The notes beneath the pieces are model-generated. The model was not told the DNA's origin. It saw nothing but the letters and a program-made list of their open reading frames with translations, and ran no database searches. Below, piece by piece: positions 50,643 through 54,004 of a stretch of DNA of 64,000 nucleotides (the first letter of the stretch is position 1; each line of letters opens with the position of its first letter). Source of the stretch: Aureivirga sp. CE67 (GTDB taxonomy: Bacteria > Bacteroidota > Bacteroidia > Flavobacteriales > Flavobacteriaceae); the NCBI RefSeq assembly GCF_015767245.1, contig NZ_JADOTV010000001.1, positions 186,001-250,000 of the forward strand, read 5' to 3'. Both the position numbers and the translations under genes were made by a program.

Positions 50643-52157
50643 TTACTCTTCTAGATTTCTTCGAACAATTTCTTTACCCAATTTTCCAAAATATTCTGTT
50701 ATAATTTTTTGCCAAAGTACCATCCCATTTTCTGAATTTGAAAAAATAACAATTCCACTTTTAGAGTTATTAAAAATCAAAGCAATCATTTTAATTCCAG
50801 GATCTCCTCCTGTGTGCATAAAAGCAATTTCATCATTTGGAAGATCTGTAAACATTTGCATTCCTAAATTCCAATAACCTCCCTTTTTTACTTGAGATTG
50901 CGGTTTTAAAAACTCCAAATATAAATCATCTGACAAACCAGCTTTATTCAAAACATGAATCATAAATTTAGAATAATCTTCTACTGTTGTTAATAAATTT
51001 GCTGCTGCGCTAGCTTCTTTATGTTTATAAAAATCTATTGGATTTCCGTTTTCATCATGTTCAACAGCGTATAAATTTTCATCTACAAATTCATTCCAAT
51101 AAAAATGTGTATTCGTCATTTTCAATGGAGCAAATAAAATTTCATTTGTAATTTCTTCAAAAGGTCGGTTAAACTTTTTCTCTACAACTTTTCTTAAATA
51201 TTCAAATCCTTCTCCAGAATATTGAACTTTTGTTCCTGGTTCAAATTGAAAAACTAACTTATTATTTTCTGTTAAATATCTCCAATTTGGAAAACCTGAT
51301 TGATGCGATAAAATATGTCTTGTAGTAAGTTTGTCTAAATATTTACTTTCTTTAATATCAGAATCGATGTGGTAATTTGAAACTGGCTCATCCAAATTCC
51401 ATTTTCCTTCTTCAACTAATTTTAAAACTGTAATTGCCGCAATTGGTTTCGTCAAAGAAGCTACTTTATAAATACTATTCGTAGAAATCGGATTTCCTTT
51501 TTTTTTCTTACCATAAGCGCGAATTTGTTGTAATTCTCCATTTTGAATAAATCCGATAGAAACAGAAGGAATTTTATGTTTGTAAAGTAATTTTTCGATT
51601 TCTTCTGTATTACTGAAAAGCTCATGAACATAATCTGCATTAAATTTTGATCCATAATCTTTCGCTGGAGGACGATGATCATAACTTAAAATTCGTTTTA
51701 ATTTCCAATTGTCATTTTCCAAAATCCAAGTATGAATAAAGCTTCCTCTTTCCGTTGCATATAATTCTTTATTTGGCTCTTTAATATAAAAAACATGTTC
51801 TCCTTTTTGAATTGCTCCATAGATTTCTCCATTATTTTTAAGTGGAAAAACTTCTAAAGTTTCAGGAACCAGCTTTCGGATTGGTTTAAAATTTGGATTG
51901 GAACAAATACTTTCCGAAAAATTATAATAAAAAGTTTCTAAATCTTGAGTTCCGTTTTGATCATGATAAAATTCTAAATCTTTATGTAAAACTTTTTTCA
52001 AAGCATCGAAATTACATTTATTAAATCCTTCTTTAAAAACGATGCTATCCCCTTTTTTCAACTCTAAAAACAGCCCAGAATTTTCAGCAATTTGTGAAAA
52101 GCTATTTTGAAAAAAAATAAAAGAGATTGCTAGAATAAATAGTTGTTTTAATTTCAT
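50643..52157 (-). CDS. Exported serine hydrolase (beta-lactamase fold) with N-terminal NTF2-like domain
   Basis: A 504-residue protein with a signal peptide (1-21, ending SFS). Residues about 25-160 form a DUF4440/SnoaL-like domain. Residues about 180-504 are a class C beta-lactamase-like hydrolase: Ser234 in SLTK (234-237), Tyr314 in the YSGEG motif, and the HTGGDPG segment near residue 470 replacing KTG. Such proteins act on esters, amides or D-amino-acid peptides outside the cell. It has a strong promoter (52184-52212) with three phased upstream repeats. Confidence 0.85.
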   Translation of the reverse strand: MKLKQLFILAISFIFFQNSFSQIAENSGLFLELKKGDSIVFKEGFNKCNFDALKKVLHKDLEFYHDQNGTQDLETFYYNFSESICSNPNFKPIRKLVPETLEVFPLKNNGEIYGAIQKGEHVFYIKEPNKELYATERGSFIHTWILENDNWKLKRILSYDHRPPAKDYGSKFNADYVHELFSNTEEIEKLLYKHKIPSVSIGFIQNGELQQIRAYGKKKKGNPISTNSIYKVASLTKPIAAITVLKLVEEGKWNLDEPVSNYHIDSDIKESKYLDKLTTRHILSHQSGFPNWRYLTENNKLVFQFEPGTKVQYSGEGFEYLRKVVEKKFNRPFEEITNEILFAPLKMTNTHFYWNEFVDENLYAVEHDENGNPIDFYKHKEASAAANLLTTVEDYSKFMIHVLNKAGLSDDLYLEFLKPQSQVKKGGYWNLGMQMFTDLPNDEIAFMHTGGDPGIKMIALIFNNSKSGIVIFSNSENGMVLWQKIITEYFGKLGKEIVRRNLEE

Positions 52158-52183
52158 CTTAATTTGATTTTTGATTCTGATTA

Positions 52184-52212
52184 CAAAATTATTTAAGATG
52201 CTTTTAAAACAA
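52184..52212 (-). promoter_or_regulatory. Promoter of the serine hydrolase gene
   Basis: On the minus strand TTG (52212-52210), 18 nt, TAATTTTG (52191-52184). Leader about 25 nt. Confidence 0.7.
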
Positions 52213-52219
52213 GGTAAAA

Positions 52220-52253
52220 GTCACGTGACAATGAGATGACAATTACCTGACAA
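52220..52253 (-). promoter_or_regulatory. Three TTGTCA repeats at 11-bp phasing plus a GTCACGTGAC palindrome
   Basis: TTGTCA on the minus strand at 52253-52248, 52242-52237 and 52231-52226, each spaced 11 bp from the next, thus on the same DNA face. The last overlaps the perfect palindrome GTCACGTGAC (52220-52229). The block ends about eight bases before the -33 element, a typical activator position. It begins three bases after the upstream XRE gene's stop codon. Confidence 0.6.
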
Positions 52254-52255
52254 GT

Positions 52256-52837
52256 CTAGAAAAAGCTGAAGTTTAACTTAAAATATAGTTTTTTATTTTT
52301 GTCTAATCCTATGGTGTTTCTGAGTATAATAAATAGATTAAAAAGCACAGCAAAAATTACAATAATCAAAGTAAATTGACGATTTAAATCAAACCATTTT
52401 CGTATAAACGGACTTAACAAAACAGCTACAACTGCGATAATTGTATAAAATATCTGTAGTGAAATTATTTGTTTTGTAAGTTTATTTTCCTGCTTTTTTA
52501 CTTTCATCAAAATAAATGGAAAAAGAATATTTACAGGAGGAAAAGCAACACCTAGTACAGAAGATAAATTAATCCATTTTGCTATTTTTATAGAATGATT
52601 ATCGTCTTCCAATTCTTTTGTAATAATTACATTTCCTTTTAGCTCTTCTTCCGAAATTTCTAAAGCTTTAGACAAAACTTTTAAAGTATAACCTTTTGGC
52701 TCTGCTCCTTTTTCAATTCGTTGAATAGTTCTAACAGAAACACCTGCTTTTTCTGCCAACTCATTTTGAGTTAGATTTAATTTCTCTCGATATTTTAAAA
52801 GATTATTCAATTTTATATTTTTTATTAAAGAAGTCAT
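52256..52837 (-). CDS. XRE-family regulator with C-terminal membrane helices
   Basis: A 193-residue protein. Residues about 10-70 are a lambda-repressor-type helix-turn-helix (LNLTQNELAEKAGVSVRTIQ, then RIEKGAEPKGYTLKVLSKAL). Residues about 90-190 hold three hydrophobic helices (about 92-111, 123-143 and 152-172). It would be a membrane-tethered transcription factor. It sits 98 bases upstream of the serine hydrolase gene on the same strand and may control it or itself. The -7 element TATTTTTG (minus strand, 52845-52852) lies eight bases before the start, so the message is nearly leaderless. Confidence 0.83.
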   Translation of the reverse strand: MTSLIKNIKLNNLLKYREKLNLTQNELAEKAGVSVRTIQRIEKGAEPKGYTLKVLSKALEISEEELKGNVIITKELEDDNHSIKIAKWINLSSVLGVAFPPVNILFPFILMKVKKQENKLTKQIISLQIFYTIIAVVAVLLSPFIRKWFDLNRQFTLIIVIFAVLFNLFIILRNTIGLDKNKKLYFKLNFSFF

Positions 52838-52844
52838 TTAAAAT

Positions 52845-52876
52845 CAAAAATAGAGATAAACAATAAATAATTCCAA
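52845..52876 (-). promoter_or_regulatory. Promoter of the XRE-family gene
   Basis: On the minus strand TTG (52876-52874), 21 nt, TATTTTTG (52852-52845). Predicted start of transcription falls at or next to the start codon. Confidence 0.5.
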
Positions 52877-52891
52877 TAAACTAGGATATTA

Positions 52892-54004
52892 TCATTTTGT
52901 CAAATTCTCCATATATTTTATCGCTGCTGACTTTAAATCATCAAAATCAAATCCATCATTAAACCCAATACCTGAATTACCATGGATACTTCCTTTTTGA
53001 GAACATAATAAATATTTAATATTTTCTAATTCCATAGCAACAGGCGAAAATTCTGTTTGAACAGTAAATTCTATATCTCCACTTTTATTTACAACATAAA
53101 AAATATGTTTATAATAAATACCTCCAGAACTTCTGTTTTCATATCTTTCAAAAACTTGTACTAAATATTCCTTCCAATCAAATTGATAAAAACAAAACTT
53201 ATCACTCATAAATTCTGGTAATAAATTTTTCTTTTTCGCATCATATAATATCTCTCTAAACGGCTCAGCTTTTTCATATTGCTTTTTAGCATAGTAAACC
53301 TGAATCATTTTGGCAACCGCATGATAATCATTTGGAACTAATTCTAAAACTTCTGCAAATGCCTTTTCAGCTTTATCATAATTTTTTGAAAGCAATTCTA
53401 GAAGACCAATATTGAACACTGTATTTGCATATTCTTCTGCTTTCGTTTGATCTTTTTCTTTTGCTAAATAGTAATACTTCAGCGCTTCTTCATTCTTGTT
53501 TTTCTCAGAATATATTTGTCCTAACATCGAAAAAGGACGCTTATCTACTTTTTCATGTTTCGTTGCCTTTTTATAATATTCTATTGCTTCGTCATATTTT
53601 TTCAAATTATAATAGGAATCACCAATAGAAGATTGATAAACAGAAATTGTATTATTTAACTCTTCTGCTTTCTTTAAAAATTCAAGCGATTTTTCATATT
53701 GATCTAAATACTGAAACGATTTACCTTTAAAATAAAAAGCATCGGCAGCCATTGGATTCTTCTCAATGGATAAATCCATATATTTAATACAGTTTGTATC
53801 ATCAGATTTCATATAATAAGCCTTCCCAATATAATAATAAGCCTCTCCAGAATAATCTTCATCTTTCGAAGCATAATTTTTAATTAACTCATCATATTTT
53901 TCTTCTAAATAAAGTTCTTCCAACTTTTTATCCATAGAATTTTGTGCAAAAATGGAAACACTGAACATTAATACACATATAGTTATAATTATCTTTTTCA
54001 TCAT
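52892..54004 (-). CDS. Exported TPR-repeat protein
   Basis: A 370-residue protein with a signal peptide (1-21, ending IFAQ). Residues about 25-260 hold six or seven tetratricopeptide repeats (for example AYYYIGKAYYMKSDD, AADAFYFKGKSFQYLDQYEKS, YYNLKKYDEAIEYYKKA). The C-terminal 110 residues (about 261-370) are a different, unrecognised domain. TPR proteins scaffold complexes; partner unknown. It lies 48 bases downstream of another exported protein gene on the same strand and they probably share a message. Confidence 0.8.
   Translation of the reverse strand: MMKKIIITICVLMFSVSIFAQNSMDKKLEELYLEEKYDELIKNYASKDEDYSGEAYYYIGKAYYMKSDDTNCIKYMDLSIEKNPMAADAFYFKGKSFQYLDQYEKSLEFLKKAEELNNTISVYQSSIGDSYYNLKKYDEAIEYYKKATKHEKVDKRPFSMLGQIYSEKNKNEEALKYYYLAKEKDQTKAEEYANTVFNIGLLELLSKNYDKAEKAFAEVLELVPNDYHAVAKMIQVYYAKKQYEKAEPFREILYDAKKKNLLPEFMSDKFCFYQFDWKEYLVQVFERYENRSSGGIYYKHIFYVVNKSGDIEFTVQTEFSPVAMELENIKYLLCSQKGSIHGNSGIGFNDGFDFDDLKSAAIKYMENLTK

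Follow-up and report, generated by a model that had tools for sequence, protein, structure and literature searches.

A conserved 11-bp triple repeat as the probable operator of the adjoining XRE-DUF4870 protein in Aureivirga sp. CE67 and its relatives

Cro/C1-type regulators usually bind palindromes as dimers, as passages of PMC12565409 describe. Repeated sites are described for other regulators: passages of PMC4829181 give TGTAA-N6-TGTAA as the site of TcpP and TNAAA-N5-TNAAA as that of ToxR, and in a part of PMC4415409 the Pho box is made up of direct repeats, 11 nt per unit, that share a TGTCA core. A passage of PMC11628618 describes the DUF4870/HOTT family as uncharacterized, and neither helix-turn-helix nor XRE appears as a term in the main text of that paper. 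The -7 consensus of F. psychrophilum promoters is TAnnTTTG, at -12 to -5, according to a section of PMC9723704. In the open-access literature searched we recognised no description of an XRE-DUF4870 regulator or of its pairing with an array operator.

The window, the whole stretch of 64,000 nucleotides of Aureivirga sp. CE67 DNA analysed here, contains TTGTCA-N5-TTGTCA-N5-TTGTCA on the minus strand at 52253-52226, with exactly the 11-bp period that a sequence-only reading had reported (Table 1). The gene order on this strand is XRE-DUF4870, array, TTG, TAATTTTG and serine hydrolase, the last with its ATG at 52157. From the XRE-DUF4870 stop codon to the array there are 2 nt (three bases had been given), and from the array to the TTG at 52212-52210, which we take to be the -33 element, there are 13 nt (the promoter had been placed about eight bases away). 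The promoter before the serine-hydrolase gene appears to be of the Bacteroidota type; counted from the F. psychrophilum consensus position, the array would cover about -74 to -47 from the putative start, and the TTG would begin at -33.

Table 1. Features of the XRE-DUF4870 and serine-hydrolase locus in the window
Feature	Position	Strand	Basis
Three-unit TTGTCA array, proposed XRE operator	52226..52253	-	sequence; conserved in relatives
TTGTCA units	52253-52248, 52242-52237, 52231-52226	-	sequence
GTCACGTGAC palindrome, not considered functional	52220..52229	.	in 1/74 arrays
TTG, -33 element of putative promoter	52210..52212	-	sequence
TAATTTTG, -7 element	52184..52191	-	sequence
XRE-DUF4870 gene, 193 aa, Cro/C1-type HTH and membrane domain, proposed array owner	52256..52837	-	PF01381, PF09685, AlphaFold2, hydrophobic stretches
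Serine hydrolase, 504 aa, proposed target	50643..52157	-	PF00144, DUF4440-like

With up to three mismatches, the triple matched in the window only the array site and two shifted registers; shuffles gave an expectation of 0.21, and three matches were reached in 0 of 100. A search of the 4.81-Mb genome for the exact TTGTCA pair returned two matches, both of them the window array. The palindrome GTCACGTGAC pointed out at the promoter-proximal end is present, but it was found in no array other than that of the window among the 74 compared; on this comparison it is incidental, and it was rejected as the main site.

The XRE-DUF4870 protein matched PF01381, a Cro/C1-type HTH, at 57.8 bits (cut-off 23) and PF09685, the DUF4870/HOTT family, at 26.4 bits (cut-off 25); its relatives L078, L141 and L082 matched PF09685 higher, at 63-81 bits. 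An AlphaFold2 model built on a 30-row alignment (pLDDT 90, pTM 0.64) placed short HTH helices at 12-67, followed by four longer helices, and a membrane anchor is predicted from the latter together with hydrophobic stretches. In Foldseek the HTH part was nearest to P22 c2, CapH, SinR and 434 Cro with probability near 1, and the whole model gave E-values of 0.02 or worse. Residues S34, R36, T37, Q39, R40 and E42 were invariant in the 30 rows. By analogy with the contacts of 434 repressor, the two invariant arginines could read the G and C of the array unit, WTGNCR. A toxin-antitoxin or defence role was considered and rejected: the XRE protein had only generic below-cut-off HTH matches in NCBIfam and weak HTH matches in PADLOC, and the serine hydrolase was without any PADLOC match.

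Of 397 family genomes, 46 contained relatives of the XRE protein, and a profile search detected them in 40 of 395 phylum genomes. From a total of 107 HMM hits, 9 were removed as belonging to 8 duplicate loci and 4 as partial proteins, which left 94 loci. An array was defined as three WTGNCR units at period 11 with a score of at least 13 of 15, and was sought up to 90 bp after the XRE stop and 30-120 bp before the XRE gene's own start. Such arrays followed the stop in 48 of the 94 loci, preceded the start in 26 and did both in none, the motif having been drawn up by eye on a subset of them and related loci not being independent. Periods of 8, 9, 10, 12, 13 and 14 gave 0, 2, 0, 0, 0 and 1 of the 94 loci, and 100 shuffles of these loci averaged 0.38 arrays and never exceeded 3. 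Among the 40 loci first scored after the motif had been fixed, 34 had an array at period 11, and the same alternative periods gave 0, 1, 0, 0, 0 and 1. The consensus unit was W, T (0.92), G (0.95), T or A, C (0.98) and R; by a laxer count there were three units in 64 arrays, four in 9 and six in 1. Most downstream arrays (35/48) began 0-5 nt past the XRE stop. On the tree of the 94 proteins, the three array-position labels required 9 changes against a shuffled mean of 39.5; the position of the array therefore follows the clades.

L057, L060 and L064 keep the 11-bp grid after the XRE stop but have their distal unit in inverted orientation (CGACAA then TTGTCG), so that unit orientation may be flexible.

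In 11 of the twenty loci below threshold the array headed the XRE operon, namely in L153, L154 and a nine-member clade of 191-aa XRE proteins that includes L089, L098 and L101. L073 and L081 reached 13 in a wider scan, L077 and L079 had a variant array only, seen by eye, and L076, L119, L134, L148 and L149 scored just 12 of 15. In L207, L225, L235, L236 and L237, the XRE gene of the 191-aa clade is preceded in its operon by a small gene for a membrane-protein-like product (~154-183 aa), and the array stands at the head of that operon.

The serine hydrolase matched PF00144 at 155 bits (cut-off 27) and DUF4440 at 24.6 bits, just under the cut-off of 25.2; by eye, its N-terminus is signal-peptide-like. 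Its relatives occurred in 25 of 397 family genomes and 5 named contigs, 32 loci in all, and in 16 of these an XRE gene lay directly upstream. In the 260-bp upstream regions (counted for L025-L029 from the inner match start, not the gene start), all 16 hydrolase genes with an adjoining XRE had an 11-bp triple repeat scoring at least 13 of 15; the repeats are conserved in relatives. Without an adjoining XRE, 2 of 16 had the array and 14 scored 9-11. Of the two, L015 retains only a C-terminal XRE remnant, recognised by eye in a partial stretch. L004, a hydrolase copy of G350, has kept the array without an XRE upstream, that genome's XRE match lying elsewhere, at L072, where it is split over two frames and stands beside a hydrolase-like stretch with an in-frame stop.

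The array was kept whichever gene lay downstream of the XRE gene. The next gene encoded another PF00144 protein at L055, L066 and L073, an aspartyl-protease-like product at L059 (likewise, below cut-off, at L068 and L076), an M50-like product at L063 (below cut-off), an esterase at L080 and an alpha/beta hydrolase at L097; the products at L069 and L075 had no match, and that at L071 had below-cut-off matches only. Since the array travels with the XRE gene whatever gene follows, its owner is most likely the XRE protein, which very probably binds it. The sequence-only reading had set this protein aside in favour of a LytTR or response-regulator owner, and the linkage goes against that choice. 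Counting against the XRE protein are the seven loci that score 12 or have a variant seen by eye, the array kept at L004 with no XRE upstream, and the palindrome preference usual, though not universal, among XRE/HTH_3 regulators (passages of PMC12565409), to which the array does not conform.

Binding of the array by a PhoB/OmpR-type response regulator, as a Pho-box-like site, would agree with the 11-nt direct repeats and with the E. coli Pho box core CTGTCAT (PMC4415409, in part). The likeness in sequence is real, but the array is linked to the XRE gene: across Bacteroidota it accompanies one XRE family, whose clades differ in the side on which it lies, and the 10 next or fused products scanned were mostly hydrolases, with no phosphate gene among them. 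We rejected this reading as very improbable. LytTR proteins bind direct repeats, and one encoded elsewhere in the genome might in principle occupy the site; however, LytTR repeats are spaced about two turns apart whereas the array units are one turn apart, no LytTR domain was found in the six neighbouring proteins scanned, and the linkage is again to the XRE gene, which leaves this proposal a very slender chance.

L082 encodes HTH_3, DUF4870 and PF00144 in one chain; L085, L095 and L100 resemble this fusion by sequence, and L150 and L151 by length only. In all six of these loci the array lies before the gene's own start. The fusions could possibly combine sensor and effector in one piece.

Array position was further compared with the promoter, the array end being extended wherever a further unit scored 4 of 5. 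In 38 of the 48 downstream arrays, 38 or 39 nt separated the array end from the TTG of the -7 box (mean per position pair 2.6); among the 26 upstream arrays, 16 had 28 or 29 nt there (mean per position pair 1.3), related loci not being independent of each other in these counts. The two modes differ by one helical turn. An activator that contacts RNA polymerase would require just such a step, which suggests that the XRE protein is an activator. The exact period and the fixed -7 distance in two modes lend good support to the activator-type, promoter-linked array that the sequence-only reading had proposed.

Repression is the less probable mode: the XRE protein would repress the hydrolase gene, and its own gene where the array precedes it, until a signal lifts the repression. 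It would suit the upstream-class arrays, which by arithmetic end at about -37, beside or over the -33 region, and autoregulation is common among XRE regulators (passages of PMC12565409). However, the window array, of the downstream class, stops about 13 nt short of the -33 TTG, and phased, fixed spacing is unnecessary for plain repression. Activation by the XRE protein seems the likelier of the two. A role of the repeats in RNA, within a terminator or an mRNA structure behind the XRE gene, is most unlikely. Against shuffles, the array stretch of the window (z -2.3) and L059 (z -2.2) fold better, but L050 does not (z -0.3), so that folding is inconsistent among the three stretches. No terminator-like site was found in 52000-53000, and in other clades the array precedes the gene, its distance from the -7 box being fixed.

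We also searched 199 family genomes for WTGNCR x3 alone. The pattern matched in 59 genomes and its reversed control in 44; among the matches listed, 74 places were examined, with further tandem copies in G024, G028:C12 and G105:C91 left out, and 46 of these 74 had no XRE of the XRE-DUF4870 family nearby. Given the reversed control and these 46 places, the triple pattern has a real chance background. The other 28 of the 74 places examined among the matches listed adjoined such an XRE and without exception shared its strand: in 9 the array came directly behind the XRE stop, in 11 it preceded the HTH match by about 95-105 bp (by 196 in one), and in 8 it stood at the operon head, 579-1952 bp before the XRE. 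The 46 comprised 20 inside ORFs of at least 140 aa, 8 copies of a single element located between other genes, 7 that were minisatellite-like and 11 of various other kinds.

An intergenic ATGACA-like 11-bp triple repeat is conserved in L184, L188, L189, L200, L205, L222, L223 and L231, from seven genomes, without such an XRE in the vicinity; each of the six stretches read has it flanked by the same two kinds of gene, and it is perhaps a mobile element. L183 (G024) contains long, minisatellite-like tandem arrays of the 11-bp unit ATGACGAACAA, with no XRE link in the stretch examined.

In the genome of strain CE67, a search found two full arrays, both beside an XRE gene, against 0 in the control. 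The second of these XRE genes (L159:1501-2242) has its array 82 bp before the start and encodes a protein of 219 aa without a DUF4870 match, membrane-anchored by eye. In this 219-aa kind the array preceded the start in 5 of 5 full-length cases, that of strain CE67 included, with scores of 13-15 at -80 to -84 (L163 from an inner ATG). RTIQRIE, with S-x or G-x before it, is common to the recognition-helix region of both XRE kinds, which ties the array to the HTH and not to DUF4870. A third XRE of this genome, L141, has DUF4870; its array, found through the XRE, is weaker (13), at -86. Beyond these, exact TTGKCR pairs occurred at four places besides the window array, and the two inspected for a wider regulon (L109 and L110) were inside ORFs; the full triple with one mismatch added two places (control 1), both likewise inside ORFs.

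Conservation, XRE linkage, exact period and fixed -7 distance are thus established by comparison of sequences. With a probability of roughly 0.8, the array is the cognate operator of the XRE-DUF4870 protein and probably serves to activate the serine-hydrolase gene. In the most likely mechanism, DUF4870 would hold the Cro/C1-type HTH at the inner face of the membrane, and one HTH would occupy each WTGNCR unit, one helical turn from the next; bound upstream of the -33 TTG, between about -74 and -47, the XRE protein would activate the hydrolase gene, presumably in response to an envelope signal. In one large clade the triple repeats would lie directly after the activator's own gene. More speculatively, and with rather less confidence than an even chance, there may be a phylum-wide class of membrane-anchored Cro/C1-type activators that line up head to tail on three one-turn repeats, dock promoters at the membrane and set periplasmic hydrolases by an envelope state sensed through a Tic20-like domain, the fusions sensing and acting in one chain.

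An operator readable beside the regulator gene in dozens of genomes would amount to a testable DNA code and would give each XRE-DUF4870 member a predicted target. The family would also be a starting point for finding out what is sensed by a Tic20-like membrane domain. If the reading is true, a Cro/C1-type regulator works on direct repeats rather than on a palindrome.

Compared with described systems, the array shares with the Pho box of PhoB the 11-nt direct repeats and the TGTCA core, but it is linked to an XRE gene, and no phosphate gene was seen among the next products scanned. ToxR and TcpP carry a cytoplasmic DNA-binding part on a membrane anchor, as is predicted for XRE-DUF4870, and the spacing of the TcpP site is likewise 11 bp; their DNA-binding domain is an OmpR-type winged helix, whereas XRE-DUF4870 has HTH_3, a different anchor and three units. 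The membrane half matches PF09685 of the DUF4870/HOTT family, in the Tic20 superfamily. P22 c2, SinR and 434 Cro (XRE/HTH_3) have the same HTH by Pfam and by fold, and their operators also lie near their own genes. Unlike these regulators, XRE-DUF4870 adds a predicted membrane anchor, in its candidate operator three direct repeats at one-turn steps take the place of a palindrome, and in one large clade that operator lies after the regulator's own gene.
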